From: Acidobacteria bacterium Mor1 | GTDB taxonomy: Bacteria > Acidobacteriota > Polarisedimenticolia > Polarisedimenticolales > Polarisedimenticolaceae | Direction of reading: 5' to 3' | Assembly: GCA_001664505.1 (NCBI GenBank) | Contig: CP011806.1 | Location: forward strand, 3,535,385 to 3,599,384 | DNA length: 64,000 bases | Part shown: positions 23,894 through 48,092 of the stretch, one piece after another | Numbering within the stretch: position 1 is the first letter of the stretch | Layout: every line of letters begins with the position of its first letter | Notes under the pieces: model-generated | Databases searched by the model: none | The model's input: only the letters and a program-made list of their open reading frames with translations | What the model was told of the DNA's origin: nothing | Made by a program: the position numbers and the translations under genes

Positions 23894-25942
<2,049 letters not shown>

Positions 25943-25961
25943 AAGAGGACCTACGGCCTCC

Positions 25962-27035
25962 ATGCATCGAATTCAATCCGACGCGAATCGCTTTCGCCAG
26001 ATCGTCCGGGGCAAGGTCCGTGAGGAGCTGCGCAAGCACCTGGGCAGCCAGGAGCTGATCGGGCGCCAGGGTAAGCAGGTCGTCTCGATTCCGATCCCGC
26101 AGCTCGAGCTGCCGCACTTCGCCCACGATCCGGGCGGGCGCGGTGTGGGCCAGGGTGAAGGGGACGGCGAGGGACAGGGCCAGAAGGCCGGCGACAAGCC
26201 GGGCAAGCACCTGCTCGAGGCGGAGTTCACCGTCGAGGAGCTGGCTCAGCTGCTGGGCGAGGCCCTCGAACTGCCGCGGATCGAGCCCAAGGGCAAGCAG
26301 GAGATGGAAGCCCAGAAGTCCCAGTACACCGGTATCGCTCCGGTGGGGCCGGAATCCCTGCGCCATTTCAAGCGCTCCTACCGCAAGGCGCTCAAGCGGC
26401 AGATCGCCACCGGGACCTACGATCCCAAGCGCCCCCGGGTGACCATCGCCCGCGGCGACCGCATGTACCGCACCTCCAAGAAGAAGCCGCTGCCCCAGAC
26501 CAACGCCGTCACGATCTACGTGATGGATGTCTCCGGTTCGATGGGTTCGGAGCAGAAGGAACTGGTGCGGACCGAGAGCTTCTGGCTCGACGCCTGGATC
26601 AAGAGCCACTACCCGTCGCTCAAGACCGTCTACATCGTTCACGACGCCCATGCCAAGGAGGTCGACCGGGAGACCTTCTTCCGTATCCGCGAATCGGGCG
26701 GCACGGTGATCTCCTCGGCCTACGACCTGGCGCTACGCATCATGGCCGAGCGCTTCCCGCCGGAAGACTGGAACCTGTACCTGTTCCACTTCACCGACGG
26801 CGAGAACTACAGCCGCCAGGACACGGCGCGCTGCATGGACATGCTCAACAAGAAGATCCTGCCGCAGCTCAACCTGTTCGGTTACGGCCAGGTCGAAAGC
26901 TACGGCACCAGCGGCGACTTCTACGACGCCCTGCACAAGGAATTCCCCGACGATGAGCGCGTGGCGCTGTCGCGGATTCCCAACCGGAACAGCATCATGG
27001 ATTCGATCAAGACCATCCTGGGGCGTGGACGTTGA
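25962..27035 (+). CDS. yhbH: YeaH/YhbH family (DUF444) von Willebrand A-like protein
   Basis: 357 residues. An N-terminal region has a Gly/Gln/Lys-rich linker (about 59-80). The C-terminal vWA-like domain has a MIDAS-type DVSGSMGS at 189-196, in AVTIYVMDVSGSMGSEQKE. Other family blocks are RGDRMYRTSKKKPLPQTNAV, FWLDAWIKSHYP, YIVHDAHAKEVDRETFF, GGTVISSAYDLAL and FTDGENYSRQDTARC. It works with PrkA/YeaG in stress signalling in other bacteria. Begins 19 bases after prkA, and its stop overlaps the spoVR start (TTGA). Confidence 0.95.
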   Translation: MHRIQSDANRFRQIVRGKVREELRKHLGSQELIGRQGKQVVSIPIPQLELPHFAHDPGGRGVGQGEGDGEGQGQKAGDKPGKHLLEAEFTVEELAQLLGEALELPRIEPKGKQEMEAQKSQYTGIAPVGPESLRHFKRSYRKALKRQIATGTYDPKRPRVTIARGDRMYRTSKKKPLPQTNAVTIYVMDVSGSMGSEQKELVRTESFWLDAWIKSHYPSLKTVYIVHDAHAKEVDRETFFRIRESGGTVISSAYDLALRIMAERFPPEDWNLYLFHFTDGENYSRQDTARCMDMLNKKILPQLNLFGYGQVESYGTSGDFYDALHKEFPDDERVALSRIPNRNSIMDSIKTILGRGR

Positions 27036-28537
27036 TTCCTCTTCCGCAAGAACTGGTAGACGCGCAGGCGCGCATCGAAGACATCGCCCACGAGTTCGGG
27101 CTGACCTTCTTTCCGGTCGTCTTCGAGATGGTGGACTACAAGCAGATGAACGCCCTGGCGGCCTACGGCGGGTTTCCGACCCGCTATCCGCACTGGCGCT
27201 TCGGCATGGAGTACCAGCATCTGAGCAAGAGCTACGAGTACGGTCTGCACAAGATCTACGAGATGGTGATCAACAACGATCCCACCTACGCGTACCTGCT
27301 CGAAGGCAACACGATGATGGACCAGAAGCTGGTGATGGCCCACGTCTACGGCCACGCCGACTTCTTCTACAACAACATGTTCTTCGCCCACACCATCCGG
27401 AAGATGGTGGACGAAATGGCGAACCATGCGACCCGGATCCGCCGTTACCAGGACCGCTACGGCATCGAGCGGGTCGAGAAGTTCATCGACGCCTGCCTGT
27501 CGGTCGAGGACCTGATCGACCCCAACTCGGTGTTCCAGTCCGAGGCCCGCACGCCGGCCCCCTCGGAACAGGCGGCTCCGGAGCCGGCGGCGGACGGCAT
27601 CGGCCGCCTGCCTGCCGAGCCCTACATGGATCGCTACGTCAACCCGCCGGAGTACCTGGAGGCCCAGCGCAAGAAGGTCGCCGAGGCCCAGGAGCGGGAG
27701 CAACGCTTCCCCTCCAGGCCTGAACGGGACGTGCTCGGTTTCCTGATGGAACACGCTCCGCTGGAGAACTGGGAGCGGGACATCCTCGGGATCATCCGCG
27801 AGGAGGCGTACTACTTCCTGCCCCAGCGGCAGACCAAGGTGATGAACGAGGGCTGGGCCTCGTACTGGCACAGCAAGATCATGACCCAGCGGGTGCTGAC
27901 CGACTCGGAGATCATCGACTACGCCGACCATCATTCCGGCACCGTGGCCACGAGCCCCGGCAAGCTCAACCCCTACAAGCTGGGCCTCGAGCTGATGCGG
28001 GACATCGAGCAGCGCTGGAACCGCGGCCAGTTCGGGCCCGAGTGGGACAGCTGCGACGATCTGGCCGAACGAGCCAACTGGGATCGCAAGCTGGGCCTGG
28101 GCCGGGCCAAGATCTTCGAGGTGCGCCGGCTGCACTCCGACGCGACCTTCCTCGACGAATTCCTGACCCCCGAGTTCTGCCAGGAGCAGAAGCTGTTCGT
28201 CTCCGAGGAGAACCAGCGCACCGGTAAGACCGTCGTCGCCACCCGGGAGTTCGAGCAGGTCAAGCAGGCGCTGTTGTTCAACTTCACCAACGGCGGCCGC
28301 CCGGTGATCGAGCTGACCGACGCCAACCACGACAACCGCTCGGAGCTCCTGCTCGCCCATCGCCACGTCGGCATCGATCTCAGGGACGACTGGGCCCGCG
28401 AGGTGCTCGAGAGCCTGGTTCGGATCTGGAAGCGCCCGGTGCGGATCGACACCACAGGCGGCGGCAAGCGCATCCGCCTGGGCCACGACGGCAAGAGCGC
28501 CAGCGAAACCCATCTGGACGAACGGGCGGCCAGCTAG
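27032..28537 (+). CDS. spoVR: SpoVR/YcgB family protein
   Basis: 501 residues, the usual length of SpoVR/YcgB. The start is TTG at 27032 in a TTGA overlap with the yhbH stop, so translation is probably coupled. Family blocks: HEFGLTFFPVVFEMVDYKQMNALAAYGGFPTRYPHW, YGHADFFYNNMFFAHT, DVLGFLMEHAPLENWERDIL, KVMNEGWASYWHSKIM and GKLNPYKLGLELMRDIEQRW. The His-rich signature suggests metal binding; biochemical function is unproven. Last of the trio. A perfect palindrome (28528-28543) spans its stop codon. Confidence 0.96.
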   Translation: MIPLPQELVDAQARIEDIAHEFGLTFFPVVFEMVDYKQMNALAAYGGFPTRYPHWRFGMEYQHLSKSYEYGLHKIYEMVINNDPTYAYLLEGNTMMDQKLVMAHVYGHADFFYNNMFFAHTIRKMVDEMANHATRIRRYQDRYGIERVEKFIDACLSVEDLIDPNSVFQSEARTPAPSEQAAPEPAADGIGRLPAEPYMDRYVNPPEYLEAQRKKVAEAQEREQRFPSRPERDVLGFLMEHAPLENWERDILGIIREEAYYFLPQRQTKVMNEGWASYWHSKIMTQRVLTDSEIIDYADHHSGTVATSPGKLNPYKLGLELMRDIEQRWNRGQFGPEWDSCDDLAERANWDRKLGLGRAKIFEVRRLHSDATFLDEFLTPEFCQEQKLFVSEENQRTGKTVVATREFEQVKQALLFNFTNGGRPVIELTDANHDNRSELLLAHRHVGIDLRDDWAREVLESLVRIWKRPVRIDTTGGGKRIRLGHDGKSASETHLDERAAS

Positions 28538-29209: not shown

Positions 29210-29236
29210 TCAAGTTTTCCCGACCGCGACCGATAC
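29210..29236 (+). promoter_or_regulatory. Sigma-28 (FliA) promoter of flagellin operon
   Basis: TCAAGTTT (29210-29217), 11 bases, ACCGATAC (29229-29236), matching TAAAGTTT-N11-GCCGATAA at 13 of 16 positions with the exact spacer. About 70 bases upstream of the flagellin ATG. Class III flagellar promoters of this type drive filament genes after hook completion. Confidence 0.85.
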
Positions 29237-29305: not shown

Positions 29306-30193
29306 ATGGCCGAACTTTTTTCGATCATCAACAACCCGACCACGCTCAACTCGCTGCGTCAGCTCGGTAACTCGCGGGGCGGTCTGAGCAACACCCTGGA
29401 TCGCCTCTCGTCGGGTCTGCGTATCAACTCGGCGTCCGACGACGCCTCGGGTCTCGCCATCGCCGACGGTCTGCGTGCGGATATCTCCGCGCTCAACCAG
29501 GCGGTGCGTAACGCCAACGACGGCATCAGCGTCTCCCAGGTGGCCGACGCCACCCTGGGTGAGTTCTCCGGTCTGCTGCAGCGCGCGGTCACCCTGGCCG
29601 AGCAGGCTGCTTCGGATACTTCCGGTGCCAACGGCGGTGCCGAGAAGCAGGCGCTGAACGACGAGTACCAGGAGATCCTGCAGGAGATCAACCGTCTCTC
29701 CCTGACGGTGGACTTCAACGGCCGGACCCTGTTCGGTGACAGCGGCGCGACCTTCGACATCCAGGTCGGTGCGTCGAGCACCTCGGCGAACAACGTGATC
29801 CAGCTGACGACCTCCTCGCTGAGCTCCACCGGTGCCACCGCCAGCGGCGGCCTGGGCCTTTCCGGCTCCGGTACCGGTATCTCGGTGACCACCACGGCCC
29901 TCAACACCAAGTCCGGTGCCCAGGCCGAGTTGGATCTGGTCCGCAGCGCGATCGACGACATCGCCTCCCGTCGAGGTGATATCGGTGCCAAGCGGAACCG
30001 CCTCGAGAACACGATCAACGTCGTGTCGGTCCAGGCGCAGACGCTGACCGCCGCCGAAAGTCAGATCCGTGACGCCGACATCGCCACGGAGATCGTGAAC
30101 CTGACCAAGTTCCAGGTTCTGAACCAGACCGGTTTGTCGGCACTCGCGCAGGCCAACGCGTCCTCGCAGAGTGTGCTGTCCCTCCTCGGGTAG
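29306..30193 (+). CDS. fliC: Flagellin (filament subunit)
   Basis: 295 residues, a short flagellin with nearly no D2/D3 domains. The N-terminal D0/D1 has FSIINNPTTLNSLRQLG, LDRLSSGLRINSASDDASGLAIADGLR and NANDGISVSQVADATL. The C-terminal D1/D0 has AELDLVRSAIDDIASRRGDIGAKRNRLENTI, SQIRDADIATEIVNLTKFQVL and the end ANASSQSVLSLLG. The middle (about 152-200) is very rich in Ser/Thr/Gly (SSLSSTGATASGG), offering O-glycosylation sites beside the nearby transferase island. ATG preceded by AAGGAG. Driven by a strong sigma-28 promoter and followed by a 15-bp perfect hairpin before flaG. Exported by the flagellar type III system. Confidence 0.98.
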   Translation: MAELFSIINNPTTLNSLRQLGNSRGGLSNTLDRLSSGLRINSASDDASGLAIADGLRADISALNQAVRNANDGISVSQVADATLGEFSGLLQRAVTLAEQAASDTSGANGGAEKQALNDEYQEILQEINRLSLTVDFNGRTLFGDSGATFDIQVGASSTSANNVIQLTTSSLSSTGATASGGLGLSGSGTGISVTTTALNTKSGAQAELDLVRSAIDDIASRRGDIGAKRNRLENTINVVSVQAQTLTAAESQIRDADIATEIVNLTKFQVLNQTGLSALAQANASSQSVLSLLG

Positions 30194-33075: not shown

Positions 33076-33440
33076 GCGCCCTGCCCGATCACATCGTGAA
33101 GGCGCTGCTGGATGTGGAGCAGGCGACCCGCTCCCTGGCCGACGCGACCCAGCAGACCGAACCGGAAGGGATCCATACCGCGATCGACCACAGGGGCGAG
33201 GCGATCGAACGGCTGCGCACCGCCATCGAAGCGGCTCGTGAGGGCCTGGACGAGAGTGCTCGCGCCGAGCTGAAGACCTGGTCCGAGGATATCGGCACCC
33301 AGGCGGAACAGGTGGAGAGCGCCCTGGGCCAGGTGCTCGAATCGACCCGCGGAGCTCTCGAAGAGCTGGCCAAGGGGATGCGGGCCGCGCGCGCCTATCA
33401 GGACGCGCCGAAGGATCCGACTCTCAACCGTTCGACTTGA
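33072..33440 (+). CDS. FliT/FlgN-like flagellar chaperone candidate
   Basis: 122 residues, all alpha-helical (KALLDVEQATRSLADATQQ; DHRGEAIERLRTAIEAAREGLDE; QVESALGQVLESTRGALEELAKGMRAARAY). Starts at TTG in a TTGA overlap with fliS. Size, helical coil and position immediately after fliS fit a FliT-type chaperone for FliD, but there is little sequence to confirm it. The 3' end overlaps the convergent aminotransferase by 17 bases. Confidence 0.65.
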   Translation: MSALPDHIVKALLDVEQATRSLADATQQTEPEGIHTAIDHRGEAIERLRTAIEAAREGLDESARAELKTWSEDIGTQAEQVESALGQVLESTRGALEELAKGMRAARAYQDAPKDPTLNRST

Positions 33441-34620
33441 TGCCGCGGCCCGGCGTTTCGCAGAGCGCCGCCGCCAATCGGTTCACTCCCTCGCGAAACT
33501 CGTCGACGTCCCCCAGCAGGCTGACGATCAGATACCCCGGCCGCGGAAAGTCGTAGTAGAACCCCGGGTGCACCAGCACCTTCTCCCGGCGCATAAGGTC
33601 CAGGGCGAACGTCTCCTCGTCGAGTTCCCGGCCCACGTCGATCACCCCGTACCAACCTGCCGGCGACCCCGCCGCCGAGGCCCCCGCCCCCCCTAGCGCC
33701 TGATCGAGGGTGGCGCGATTGGCCGCCAGCCGGTCCCGTATCTGCCCGATCAAACCGTCGCGAACGGCGAGCAACGACCGCGCCCCCAGCTGCACCGGCG
33801 TGTTGACCGAGAGGTAGGTGTCGGCGATGGTCTCGAGCCGCTCCAGCGCCTCGTCCCGCCGGGCCGCCGGGCCCGAAACGTGGATCCAGCCCAGCTTGAG
33901 CTGGGGCAGGCCGGCGATCTTCGACAGGCCGCTGGTCACGAAGGTCAACGTGCGCCGTTCACCGGCGAAGCTGACCCGTTCCGGTAACTCCTCGGCGTAG
34001 TCGAGAAACACCTCGTCGACGATCAGCGCCGCGTCATGCTCGAGACAGGCGCTGACGAGCCGGTCCCGCTGGGCGGGACCGGGCATCGTGCCGCACGGAT
34101 TGTGCGGTTGAACCAGGACCACGGCCCGGGCGGTCGGATCGAACCCCGGCCAGGGCGCGCGCTCTACCGCTTCGCCGGGGGTGAACGCTTCCCTGGGCAA
34201 GCTGTAGGGAGCGAGGGTCACGTCGGACAGGGTCGCCAGAAAGTCGAGCAACGGATACGAGGGCACCGGGGTCGCGACCCGGTCACCGGGATCGCAGAGC
34301 AGGCGAAAAAGGTAGTGGTAGGCCTCGCTGGTGCTGGCGGTCAGGACCAGATGATCGGGATCGACCGGCACGCCATGGCCGGCGTAGTACTCGGCGACCG
34401 CTTCCCGGGCGTCTCGCAGGCCGCGAGGCTCAGGGGTGTAGCGCAGGAGCCGGTCGTCGGAGAGCGCCCGGCGAATCGCCTCGTCGGGATATTCGAAGCC
34501 GCAGGCGGTGGGGTTGGAACGCGTCAGGTCCAGAAAGGAGTGACCCGCTGCGCGCAGCTCGCGCTGCTCCCGGGTCAACGGATTGAGACCGTGATCCCAT
34601 GCGGTCCGGCGACTGAACAT
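33424..34620 (-). CDS. Class I/II PLP-dependent aminotransferase
   Basis: 398 residues, fold type I aminotransferase (AspC/AlaA-like). Blocks: LDLTRSNPTACGFEYPDEAI, LTASTSEAYHYLFRLLCDPGDRVATPVPSYPLL, VVLVQPHNPCGT (cofactor-binding Asn), ALIVDEVFLDYAEE (Asp contacting the pyridine N), and SGLSKIAGLPQLKLGWI with the Schiff-base Lys in SGLSK. Substrate amino acid unknown. Codon use resembles its neighbours. It reads against the flagellin operon and overlaps its last gene by 17 bases at the 3' end. No link to flagella is visible other than position. Confidence 0.92.
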   Translation of the reverse strand: MFSRRTAWDHGLNPLTREQRELRAAGHSFLDLTRSNPTACGFEYPDEAIRRALSDDRLLRYTPEPRGLRDAREAVAEYYAGHGVPVDPDHLVLTASTSEAYHYLFRLLCDPGDRVATPVPSYPLLDFLATLSDVTLAPYSLPREAFTPGEAVERAPWPGFDPTARAVVLVQPHNPCGTMPGPAQRDRLVSACLEHDAALIVDEVFLDYAEELPERVSFAGERRTLTFVTSGLSKIAGLPQLKLGWIHVSGPAARRDEALERLETIADTYLSVNTPVQLGARSLLAVRDGLIGQIRDRLAANRATLDQALGGAGASAAGSPAGWYGVIDVGRELDEETFALDLMRREKVLVHPGFYYDFPRPGYLIVSLLGDVDEFREGVNRLAAALCETPGRGIKSNG

Positions 34621-34670: not shown

Positions 34671-35693
34671 TCAGTGAGCCGGGATCAACCCGTCCTGCTC
34701 CAGGCGGCGCAGTTTCTCGAGGAAGGTGGTGCGCTTGAGTTCCAGCAGCTCCGCGGCCCGGGCCTTGTTGCCGTCGGCCAGTCGCAGGGACTGCAGGATC
34801 AACTCACGCTCCAGGTTTGAAACCGCCGAACGCAGGCTCAACCCCTCCTCGGTCACCACGACGCTGGCTCCGGCACCGGCGTTCCCCTGGTCCAGCCCGG
34901 AGAACTCGGCGGGCAGGTCGTGAACCGTGACCACTTCCCGCTCGCACATGATCGACGCGTACTCGACGGCGTTCTCCAGCTCGCGCACGTTGCCGGGCCA
35001 GTCGTGGGCGGCCAGCGCCCGCATAGCGTCGGGACCGAACAGCTTGGCCTCGGCCAGGCCCAGCTTCTCGGCGACCCGCTCGCTGAAGTGTTCGACCAAC
35101 GGGGGGATATCGGTCGGACGATCGCGCAGCGCGGGAATGGCGACGGGGAAGGTGTTGATCCGGTAGTAGAGATCGAGCCGGAACTCACCCCGGTCGACCA
35201 GCTCCTTGAGGTTCTGGTTGGTGGCGGCCACCACCCGCACGTTGATTGGACGGGCTTCGCGGTCCTGGGCGCCGAGCCGGGTCACCGTGCGGGTTTGCAA
35301 CACCCGCAGCAGGCGGATCTGGGCTTCCGGCTTCATCGTCGAGATTTCATCGAGAAACAGGGTGCCGCCGTCGGCCTGTTCGAACTTGCCCTGGTGGTCG
35401 CTGACGGCTCCGGTGAACGCGCCCTTCACGTGGCCGAACAGCTCGCTCTCCAGCAGGCTGTCGGGGATCGCGCCGCAGTGGACGCTGATCATCGGGCCCC
35501 GGGAGCGCAGCGGACTGCCTTCGTGAAGCAGGCGGGCGGCCAGTTCCTTGCCGGTTCCGCTTTCACCGGTGAGCAGCACCGAGGTATCGAGGGAGGCCAC
35601 CTTATGAAGGAGGTCCACCACCGAGTTCATCGACGCGCTGCCGGTCACGAAGCGCGTCTTCTCGGAGCCTTCGATGTTCATCGCTTGAGCCAT
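34671..35693 (-). CDS. FlrA/FleQ-type sigma-54 activator lacking a receiver domain
   Basis: 340 residues. The AAA+ domain starts almost at the N-terminus: Walker A GESGTGKE (43-50), GAFTGA sigma-54 loop (91-96), Walker B LFLDE (112-116), [41 protein letters not shown] and DWPGNVRELENAVEYA. The C-terminal Fis-type helix-turn-helix is LILQSLRLADGNKARAAELLELKRTTFLEKLRR. With no N-terminal sensory domain it should be constitutively competent or controlled by partners. Likely master activator of the sigma-54 flagellar tier, since five sigma-54 promoters follow downstream. Start ATG with GAGGT upstream; ATG 35681 is also possible. Expressed from a good sigma-70 promoter. Confidence 0.9.
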   Translation of the reverse strand: MAQAMNIEGSEKTRFVTGSASMNSVVDLLHKVASLDTSVLLTGESGTGKELAARLLHEGSPLRSRGPMISVHCGAIPDSLLESELFGHVKGAFTGAVSDHQGKFEQADGGTLFLDEISTMKPEAQIRLLRVLQTRTVTRLGAQDREARPINVRVVAATNQNLKELVDRGEFRLDLYYRINTFPVAIPALRDRPTDIPPLVEHFSERVAEKLGLAEAKLFGPDAMRALAAHDWPGNVRELENAVEYASIMCEREVVTVHDLPAEFSGLDQGNAGAGASVVVTEEGLSLRSAVSNLERELILQSLRLADGNKARAAELLELKRTTFLEKLRRLEQDGLIPAH

Positions 35694-35750: not shown

Positions 35751-35778
35751 AATATATTTATTGATCTTCAGGAATCAA
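35751..35778 (-). promoter_or_regulatory. Sigma-70 promoter of the FlrA-like gene
   Basis: On the minus strand: TTGATT (35778-35773), a 16-base spacer, TATATT (35756-35751), about 58 bases upstream of the ATG. It lies in the most AT-rich stretch of the window. Its -35 overlaps the -35 of a divergent sigma-28 promoter. Confidence 0.6.
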
Positions 35779-35801
35779 GTTAGATTCTAATATTCCGATA
35801 C
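35775..35801 (+). promoter_or_regulatory. Sigma-28 (FliA) promoter, divergent from FlrA-like gene
   Basis: TCAAGTTA (35775-35782), exactly 11 bases, TCCGATAC (35794-35801); nearly identical to the flagellin promoter. It points toward the TPR-flrB-flrC operon 230 bases away. A sigma-54 promoter lies between, so the product could be a long-leader operon transcript or a small RNA. Confidence 0.7.
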
Positions 35802-35847: not shown

Positions 35848-35877
35848 TCCGACATTCCCGGGGGAATCCCCGTCGGA
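35848..35877 (+). other. Nested hairpin in the sigma-28 transcribed leader
   Basis: Outer arms TCCGAC (35848-35853) and GTCGGA (35872-35877) enclose the inner arms ATTCCC and GGGAAT (35854-35859, 35862-35867). It lies about 45 bases after the sigma-28 start site. There is no T tract. It could be an RNA element or a protein-binding site; no open frame is seen around it. Confidence 0.4.
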
Positions 35878-35961: not shown

Positions 35962-35977
35962 AGGCACGGCCCTTGCT
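35962..35977 (+). promoter_or_regulatory. Sigma-54 promoter of the TPR-flrB-flrC-flg/fli operon
   Basis: AGGCACGGCCCTTGCT: -24 GG (35963-35964), ten bases, -12 GC (35975-35976), compared with TGGCACG-N4-TTGCW. It is 53 bases upstream of the first ATG. Confidence 0.8.
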
Positions 35978-36030: not shown

Positions 36031-37896
36031 ATGAAACGCCGAACCGCCATCGCCGCGCTGCTGCTGGCCGCGACCCCGTGGGTTCCGGTTCAGGCCCAGA
36101 ACGAGGCCGCCGATGCCGCCCCGGCAGGCGAAACCACCGCTGCGGCCAACGGCACCGAGGTGGTTCCGCCGCCCAAGGTCATCCGCGGGATGAGCGAATC
36201 CGACGAGGAGCGGTTGATCGACCTGACCCGAGCGGTCCAGTCCGAGAACGCCGCCGAGAGCGCCGGGGCCCTGAACGAGTTGCGCAGCCTGGCTGCCGGC
36301 GACCCCTCGCTGGAACTGACCCGTGAGGTGCTTTTCCTGCTGGCCACCTGGCTGCCGGTCAAGGAGGGGGAGACCGACCCCCAGGCCGTACGCGCCTTGT
36401 CGGCAGCGACCAACCTCTACCCCGAAGATCCCCGCACGCTTTCGATGCTCGAACGGCTGGGCCTGGCCCAGCTCGAGCTGGGCAACGACATCGAGGCCCA
36501 CATCGCGTTCCAGCGTTGGGCGGTGGAAGAAGGGGACGCAGCCACTCCCGGCACGCTGGCTCGCGCAGCCTTCAACGCCTCCCAGGTCGGCGACCTGGTC
36601 GCCGCCTTCGAGTGGTCCCAACACATCCACCTCGACGCCCTCGATGAAACCGAGCGGGGCCTGGCGCTGGTGGCCAAGGTCATCGGCGCCCACGGAACCG
36701 GGCGCTACGACCTGGCTCTCGAACCGATCAAGATCCTCGACGAGACCATGCCCGAGACCCTGCGGATCCACGAGGGTGCCCTGCGCGCGGCCGCCGAGAT
36801 CGATGCGTCCCAGGGGGATGTCGAAAGCGCCATCGAACGCTACCGGCTGTTCGTCAACATCCACTCCCGTGCCACCGACCGGGCCCAGGCGATCTGGACC
36901 ATGTCCGAGCTCGCCGCGAACAACGCCGATACCGAGCGCGCCCAGCGCTTCAAGGCCTGGCTGATCAACGATCATCCGAAATCGGCCGAGGCGGCACAGG
37001 CCCGGGTCGACCTGCTCGAGGGGATGGGACAACCGCCGGACCCTTCGTTGATCGCGGCCTACGTGGTGATGGGCCGGGACGCGCCGACGCCCAAGTCGGT
37101 GACGATGATCTGCGATCGGTTGGCCTCGCGCTTCATCGGTGCGGGCTTTCCCATCGAGGCGATCTCCGCGCTGGGCCGGCTGGCCCGTGAGGACGAGCTG
37201 AAGAGCCTCGCTCCTCTGGCGGCACGCAGCACCCTGCGCAACTATCTCGAACCTGCCATCGGACTGCTGGAGTCCCGCGACGACTACGTCGGGATCGCTG
37301 CGGTCGCCGCCGAGGCGGAGAACCTCGGCGTCACCCTGCCTCGCGAAGTGGGCGGCATCGTCGCCCGTGCCCGGGCCCGGCTCGGACTTCCGGACACCGG
37401 CTCGGGCCTGATCAACGACGCCATCGCCGAGGCCCGTGCCAGGGCGGACGCCGGCGAATGGGCCGAGGTGGTCACGACCCTGAGCGAGATCCTCGAGATC
37501 GATCGCAACCCCACTCCCTACTACCGGCAGAAGATCGGCCGGATGCTGGCCGAAGCGCTGTGGCGCGAGGGCCGGGACGCCGAGGCCCTGGCCCGTACCC
37601 ATTGGGCTCTCGAAGACGAAGGACTGCACGCCAACGAGCGTCGGGCGCTGACGGTGTTGCGCGCCGACATCCTGTTCTCGGCGGGGACTTTCGGCGAGGC
37701 GTGCACCGCCTACGCCAACGCCGCCCAGGTCTTCGACTCGGACTGGGTCGAGCAACAACTCCAGCGATGCACCGAGATTCAAGCCAAGAGCAACATCGCC
37801 ACTACGGCTGCGCTTTTCGGCTCGACCTGGGTTCGGCAACAACTCACACGCTGCATTGAAATCGAAGGCGAAGACGGCAAGGAGAAGAAGGCATGA
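36031..37896 (+). CDS. Exported TPR-rich protein heading the flrBC/basal-body operon
   Basis: 621 residues from ATG 36031 (AGGGAG upstream), with a signal peptide (RRTAIAALLLAATPWVPVQA-QN) and then a ~30-residue Ala/Thr-rich linker. The rest is alpha-helical repeats of TPR/SEL1 character: LFLLATWLPVKEGETDPQAVRALSAATNLYPEDP; LGLAQLELGNDIEAHIAFQRWAVEEGD; EIDASQGDVESAIERYRLFVNIHS; GEWAEVVTTLSEILEIDRNP; DILFSAGTFGEACTAYANAAQVF. First gene after the sigma-54 promoter, and its stop overlaps the flrB start (ATGA). Position implies a flagellar role, possibly a periplasmic assembly or motor scaffold factor. I know no named flagellar protein that matches. Confidence 0.85.
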   Translation: MKRRTAIAALLLAATPWVPVQAQNEAADAAPAGETTAAANGTEVVPPPKVIRGMSESDEERLIDLTRAVQSENAAESAGALNELRSLAAGDPSLELTREVLFLLATWLPVKEGETDPQAVRALSAATNLYPEDPRTLSMLERLGLAQLELGNDIEAHIAFQRWAVEEGDAATPGTLARAAFNASQVGDLVAAFEWSQHIHLDALDETERGLALVAKVIGAHGTGRYDLALEPIKILDETMPETLRIHEGALRAAAEIDASQGDVESAIERYRLFVNIHSRATDRAQAIWTMSELAANNADTERAQRFKAWLINDHPKSAEAAQARVDLLEGMGQPPDPSLIAAYVVMGRDAPTPKSVTMICDRLASRFIGAGFPIEAISALGRLAREDELKSLAPLAARSTLRNYLEPAIGLLESRDDYVGIAAVAAEAENLGVTLPREVGGIVARARARLGLPDTGSGLINDAIAEARARADAGEWAEVVTTLSEILEIDRNPTPYYRQKIGRMLAEALWREGRDAEALARTHWALEDEGLHANERRALTVLRADILFSAGTFGEACTAYANAAQVFDSDWVEQQLQRCTEIQAKSNIATTAALFGSTWVRQQLTRCIEIEGEDGKEKKA

Positions 37897-39033
37897 ATCC
37901 CACCGGTGATTCCACCTCGATGTTGACCAACGCGTTCCAGCGTTTCGAACGGGCCGCCCACCGGCTCGAGGAGAAACACTCCAGCCTGCACGCCAAGGTC
38001 GATCGTCTCGAGCGGGAGTTGCTCGACGCCAACCGGCGTCTCGAGACCGTGCTCGACGCTCTTGACGTCGCGCTGGCCGTGCTGCAACCCGACGGGTCGC
38101 TGCTGCGGGTCAACGCCGCCTTCGAACAGCTCGGCCTCGGCAGCGCCGGGGACACGTTGACCGATCCGGACCTGCGCGAACTGTTGGACAAGACCGACGC
38201 CGAGGCGCAGACCGCGCGCCTGCGGCGGGAGTCTCCCTTCGGTACCCGTGACTTCGCCGTGACCTTCATCCCCGTCGACGACGAGATCGGCACCCGGGTG
38301 CTGACGGTTCAGGACGTCACCGAGATCCGCAAGGAGGAAGCCGAGGGCGGCCGCCGGCAGCGGCTGGAGGCCCTGGGCCGCATGGCTGCCGAACTGGCTC
38401 ACGAGGTACGCAACCCGCTGGGTTCTATCCGGCTGTTCGCCTCGATGCTGGGTGACGATCTGGCCGACCGGCCGGCGGAACAGGAAATGGCGGAACGCAT
38501 TCTCTCGGCAACGTCGGGCCTGGAAGGCACGGTGTCGAACCTGCTGGCCTTCGCCAACCCCAGCGAAGGGGTCTGGCAGACCATCGACCTGCGTGAAATT
38601 GCCGAGGATGTCTGCGGCCTGCTGGCTCCGGCCTGCTCCCTGCGCGGCGTCGCACTCACCTCTCCCGACCGCCGCGGCCCCTGCTGGGTCGAGGGGGACG
38701 GCGAGGGGATGCGCCAGGTGCTGCTCAACCTGGTGGGCAACGCTCTGTCGGCCACCGGCGACGGCGGCAAGATCGTCGTCGACGTGGTGCGCGAGGGCAG
38801 CGAGGCCCGCCTGACCGTCGAGGACGATGGCTGCGGGATCGCCGCCGAGGATCTACCCCGGGTATTCGATCCGTTCTTCAGCCGCACCGAGAACGGAACC
38901 GGCCTGGGCCTCTCGATCGTCCACGGCATCGTCGAACGGGGTGGCGGACAGATCACCCTGCACAGCCGCAAGGAAGAAGGAACCCGCGCAGTGGTCAGCC
39001 TGCCGGTGCGGCCCGCCCAGCCGGAGGTCCTGC

Positions 39034-39041
<8 letters not shown>
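37893..39041 (+). CDS. flrB: FlrB/FleS-type sensor histidine kinase
   Basis: 382 residues, no membrane helix, so cytoplasmic. An N-terminal coiled coil (about 18-58: HRLEEKHSSLHAKVDRLERELLDANRRLETVLDAL) leads into a PAS domain (about 50-145). HisKA follows with phospho-acceptor H170 in AELAHEVRNPLGSIRLFASML, then HATPase_c with N box N283 (LLNLVGNALSA), G1 DDGCGI (311-316), F box FDPFFS and G2 GTGLGLS (335-341). This is the arrangement of FlrB/FleS, which phosphorylates FlrC/FleR during class II-III transition. Overlaps the TPR gene upstream (ATGA) and flrC downstream by 8 bases. Confidence 0.93.
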
Positions 39042-40398
<1,357 letters not shown>

Positions 40399-48076: not shown

Positions 48077-48092
48077 TGGTACGCCGGTTGCT
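48077..48092 (+). promoter_or_regulatory. Sigma-54 promoter of fliI-fliJ-motE operon
   Basis: TGGTACGCCGGTTGCT: -24 GG (48078-48079), ten bases, -12 GC (48090-48091), differing from TGGCACG-N4-TTGCW only by T for C. It is 42 bases before the GTG of fliI. Confidence 0.8.

Follow-up and report, generated by a model that had tools for sequence, protein, structure and literature searches.

In the flagellar gene cluster of Acidobacteria bacterium Mor1, a sequence resembling a sigma-28 promoter lies back to back with the sigma-70-type promoter of a gene for a sigma-54 enhancer-binding protein, which raises the question of which transcription unit, if any, the sigma-28 site serves. A sequence-only reading of the window, that is, of the whole stretch of 64,000 nucleotides analysed here, had assigned the site to a late shut-off of the regulator gene. 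The features of the locus are collected in Table 1, with positions counted from the first letter of the window.

Table 1. Promoter elements, repeats and genes at the divergent flagellar locus
Feature	Position	Strand	Remark
Sigma-54 enhancer-binding protein, FlrA-like by position, lacking a receiver domain	34671-35693	-	GAFTGA present
Sigma-70-type -10 TATATT of regulator gene	35751-35756	-	TATGTA, TATGTT or TATAAG in relatives, same spacing
Inverted repeat GAATC-N6-GATTC over both -35 elements	35772-35787		possible operator, suggested by sequence
Sigma-70-type -35 TTGATT of regulator gene	35773-35778	-	TTGA core and 16-nt spacing kept in relatives
Sigma-28 -35 element TCAAGTTA	35775-35782	+	core identical to flagellin site at 29210
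Sigma-28 -10 element TCCGATAC	35794-35801	+	11-nt spacer; predicted start at about 35808
Inverted repeat TCCGAC-N18-GTCGGA upstream of sigma-54 promoter	35848-35877		candidate enhancer-binding site, suggested by sequence
Sigma-54 promoter AGGCACGGCCCTTGCT of TPR-kinase-regulator operon	35962-35977	+	equivalent in 7/7 relatives checked
Exported TPR-repeat protein, first gene of divergent operon	36031-37896	+	signal-peptide-like N-terminus, judged by eye
Histidine kinase, FlrB/FleS-like by position	37893-39041	+	
NtrC-type response regulator, FlrC/FleR-like by position	39034-40398	+	degenerate GAFTGA loop (GGHSRA)
Flagellin sigma-28 promoter TCAAGTTT-N11-ACCGATAC	29210-29236	+	yardstick; flagellin gene 29306-30193

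The sigma-28 site and the promoter that it overlaps

The elements of a FliA-type promoter (a -35 element TCAAGTT or TAAAGTTT, a -10 element GCCGATAA and a spacing of about 11 nt) were present at 35775 with a core match of 13/13, and the site scored 12/16 against the E. coli sigma-28 consensus. The site had been described as nearly identical to the flagellin promoter and as having an exact 11-base spacer. Its coordinates and spacer agree with the sequence, and 14 of the 16 element bases are the same in the 2 promoters, the spacers being different. Throughout the genome (5.985 Mb), the pattern TCAAGTT-N13-CCGATA had 2 exact matches, the flagellin promoter and the site at 35775, both of which are located in the flagellar cluster. 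Another 7 sites contained a single mismatch, one of them about 35 bp before flgM, and no recognised flagellar gene was found beside the other 6. At 2 mismatches, the motif gave 76 matches genome-wide and the reversed control pattern 60, so that only the top matches carry information. FliA itself, with a score above its curated cut-off, is encoded about 2.8 kb beyond the end of the window, FlgM is likewise encoded nearby, and RpoN is also encoded in the genome.

A site with 2 mismatches and a perfect -10 element, TCAAGAGC-N11-GCCGATAA, adjoins motAB (L199 866-891; G000:C1:3614365, minus strand). It was noted that this site diverges from motAB and faces a small unannotated ORF.

The 111-nt AT-rich patch and the intergenic region were each subjected to 2,000 dinucleotide shuffles, and a search of either strand with spacers of 10 to 12 did not yield a single 13/13 match (0/2,000 in both). 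The overlap of the sigma-28 match with the regulator promoter is real and beyond chance. The sigma-70 -35 element had been placed correctly, and the arrangement of the promoters back to back was borne out, but the claim that this element lies inside the sigma-28 -35 element holds only partially, since the 2 elements have 4 bases in common (35775 to 35778). The plus-strand sequence TCAAG is the complement of CTTGA in the sigma-70 -35 element, and half of the sigma-28 -35 element therefore comes free and is not independent evidence. With this half supplied by the sigma-70 promoter, the exact overlap is less coincidental than it appears, and the independent evidence resides in CCGATA, for which the local chance expectation is about 2e-4 per position at exactly 11 nt and about 5e-4 over the 3 allowed spacings. 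Because of the shared -35 bases, RNA polymerase would be unable to occupy both promoters at once. This mutual exclusion follows from the geometry, but its size does not.

The regulator and its promoter in related genomes

The regulator promoter, TTGATT-N16-TATATT, matched the TTGACA-N16-18-TATAAT-like consensus in 9 of 12 positions. Taken alone the match is weak and not significant, as an equally good one was obtained on the same strand in 27% of the shuffles of the AT-rich patch. We nevertheless regard the promoter as credible, with support from the comparison with relatives rather than from the shuffle statistics. In most genomes with an orthologue of the regulator, a promoter with a 16-nt spacer preceded the same gene, and this spacer was the constant feature across the regulator promoters. 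In one related family, 10 of the 12 genomes had TTGACA-N16-TATGTA before the orthologous enhancer-binding-protein genes, and the nearest relative, G004, contained TTGACA-N16-TATGTT and TTGACG-N16-TATAAG at 2 loci. The promoter in genome G008, GAATTTAACTTGTTT-N16-TATGTT, was identical in 13 of 15 positions to GAATCTAACTTGATT-N16-TATATT in the genome studied here, a similarity equalled by 5 of 200 shuffles. Furthermore, G008 has ACAAGTTA at the equivalent place without CCGATA, which suggests that most of the sigma-28 -35 element came from the older regulator promoter and that only the -10 element had to be gained. This would provide a simple evolutionary route, whereby the complement of CTTGA gives TCAAG and a CCGATA at the right distance makes the regulator promoter two-faced.

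In the TTGACA family, a conserved box, RTGGTCGANNTC, abuts the regulator -35 element directly upstream of TTGACA-N16-TATGTA, and is a possible autoregulatory operator. The box and the -35 element taken together are similar to GTCaNTAAAtTGAC, the FleQ box of Pseudomonas, as quoted in a paper that itself doubts the reliability of this FleQ box (PMC6120874). It may therefore be that regulation is commonly exerted at this position. The box was seen in L018, L019, L020, L022 and others, about 515 to 720 nt upstream of the match to the enhancer-binding protein.

The regulator protein is an AAA+ activator of sigma-54 with a GAFTGA motif and a Fis-type HTH domain, as in FlrA and FleQ. The AAA+ domain begins already at residue 17, and no FleQ/FlrA or receiver-like N-terminal domain was found in the protein. 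The earlier designation as an FlrA-like master regulator is thus upheld for the position, the AAA+ domain, the GAFTGA motif and the HTH domain, but not for the N-terminal domain, and the role of a master regulator is suggested by the position of the gene. Among the orthologues, the N-terminus is a true receiver domain in G018 and of an unrecognised type in G008. An aminotransferase gene (33424-34620, minus strand) was located between the regulator gene and the fliS region, and none was seen there in G004, G008 and G016.

The operon downstream of the sigma-28 site

The sigma-28 site points into an operon, an aspect that the sequence-only reading had overlooked, along with the operon's own sigma-54 promoter. 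Reading rightward from the site, the genes for the TPR protein, the kinase and the NtrC-type regulator are followed by flgB, flgC, fliE, fliF and fliG, of which flgC and fliE were assigned from their position and sequence, and the genes from TPR to fliG overlap or abut as in an operon. The sigma-54 promoter, located 187 bp downstream of the sigma-28 promoter, deviates by one mismatch from TGGCACG-N4-TTGCW and retains the invariant GG and GC. Further matches with one mismatch were observed at 48077, 53739 and 59169 on the plus strand, just upstream of genes in the flagellar cluster.

The sigma-28 and sigma-54 sites were sought in 7 relatives, all from outside the genus (G004, G016, G018, G011, G037, G027 and G031), and the divergent layout of the regulator and the TPR-kinase-regulator genes was read gene by gene in G004, G016 and G018. 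A sigma-54 promoter with 1 to 2 mismatches was present at the equivalent place in all 7, and a sigma-28 site beside it was absent from all 7. In both G004 and G008 the same class of sigma-28 motif precedes flagellin. G008 also contains a weaker sigma-28-like site, TCAAGTTT-N11-GCCGATCG (L042 7088-7113; G008:C2:55087), which lies about 490 bp ahead of the regulator gene, points toward it and would drive its expression there. In the interval equivalent to 35848-35877, G004 has the repeat TCCGAC-N20-GTCGGA.

In the FlrC-like response regulator, GGHSRA replaces GAFTGA and the Walker A motif reads AESGAGKE. The orthologues in G004, G018, G011 and G027 have kept GAFTGA or the close form GAYTGA, which indicates that the loss is derived. 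If the response regulator cannot activate sigma-54, the cascade of this lineage may already have been rewired, and the added sigma-28 promoter would be one more sign of it.

The flagellar cascade of Vibrio and Pseudomonas has 4 tiers, in which FlrA/FleQ acts with sigma-54 on FlrBC/FleSR, which again act with sigma-54, and FliA comes late. The locus resembles these systems in the sigma-70-type promoter of the enhancer-binding protein, the sigma-54 promoter of the kinase/regulator pair and the late class under FliA and FlgM. Unlike them, it has a TPR gene at the head of the operon, kinase and regulator genes that form one run with flgBC-fliEFG, a sigma-28 promoter overlapping that of the FlrA-like gene, and an FlrA-like protein devoid of the FleQ N-terminal domain. 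Operons read from 2 sigma classes are known from other flagellar systems, such as PflgM in P. putida, which is partly FliA-dependent (PMC5026340), whereas the sigma-28 promoter examined here precedes a conserved sigma-54 promoter by 187 bp and is embedded in the promoter of a neighbouring gene. We regard the overlap at 35775 as a variant, specific to this lineage, of the promoter logic known from flagellar systems. A full-text literature search retrieved no paper on the layout of sigma-70, sigma-54 and sigma-28 promoters in a flagellar cluster of Acidobacteriota, a layout that is documented here.

A probable late promoter weighed against shut-off and by-product

On balance, we lean towards interpreting 35775-35801 as a genuine FliA promoter gained by this lineage inside an older one, the sigma-70 promoter of the regulator gene next to it. 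The FliA promoter would serve as a late promoter of the operon and in a hand-over from the regulator and sigma-54. A rightward mRNA of the late phase would start at about 35808, reach the TPR gene after about 220 nt and continue through the kinase and response regulator genes into flgBC-fliEFG, so that transcription gated by FlgM would be added to that from the conserved sigma-54 promoter at 35962. Strong firing after hook completion would lower the synthesis of the regulator through the occupied -35 bases, and the net effect would be that the operon passes from regulator/sigma-54 control to sigma-28 control. From the sequence we infer that the site fires, when it would do so and how the regulator might be affected. 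The absence of the site from all 7 relatives with the matching sigma-54 promoter speaks against a late promoter, and with a long leader and a sigma-54 promoter already in place, a second promoter is dispensable in principle.

It is also conceivable that the sequence is an unused by-product of an AT-rich sigma-70 promoter, as the part provided by TCAAGTTA is common to the regulator promoter of G008, the site is missing from the relatives, and the weaker site of G008 points toward the regulator instead. The chance expectation for CCGATA at exactly 11 nt and the status of the site as one of 2 perfect genomic matches, the other being flagellin, argue against this, and we consider it quite unlikely. 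Very unlikely, in our view, is a promoter for a leader RNA or small RNA within the 220-nt gap rather than for operon mRNA. Sigma-28-dependent small RNAs are known from E. coli and Campylobacter (PMC10578931, PMC4626219), but the 253-nt leader folded no better than its shuffles (z -0.73), giving no sign of a special RNA structure, and a search for rightward sites resembling an intrinsic terminator, from the sigma-28 site up to the TPR gene, found none.

The shut-off proposed from the sequence, in which FliA polymerase would block the sigma-70 promoter after hook completion and end the early programme, shares with the preferred reading the 4 common bases that make binding mutually exclusive. Divergent back-to-back promoters with shared bases, at which polymerase can bind in only one orientation at any moment, are known from E. 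coli, although there the -10 bases are shared and here the -35 bases of 2 sigma classes (PMC12825309). In E. coli, strong activation in one direction clearly represses the other, whereas no interference was measurable at basal activity (PMC12825309). A modest negative effect of FliA has been reported in P. putida, where the activity of 3 promoters, PflgA and PflgB among them, dropped about 2-fold when FliA was present (PMC5026340), and the box that abuts the same -35 element in relatives suggests that this spot may be a usual place of control. Against a pure shut-off, the same firing would also transcribe the flrB/flrC-like and flgBC-fliEFG genes, that is, early and middle genes, which is the opposite of ending the programme, and the site is not conserved in the relatives. 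No report of FliA occluding flrA or fleQ was found in the open literature, which does not prove that none exists. We think it unlikely that the site acts mainly in this manner. Switching the regulator off is probably not its main job, and a hand-over fits better.

A stronger version of the late-promoter reading, in which one sigma-28 binding event takes over the basal-body/regulator operon and simultaneously turns the initiator down as a hard-wired hand-over switch without a repressor protein, is tentative and seems rather doubtful. If this is true, hook completion would feed back on the onset of the flagellar cascade through overlapping promoters alone, with no protein as intermediary.

It was also noted that the flagellin gene and a PilZ gene are immediately preceded by a run of genes for PrkA kinase, DUF444 and SpoVR proteins (23894-28537, plus strand).
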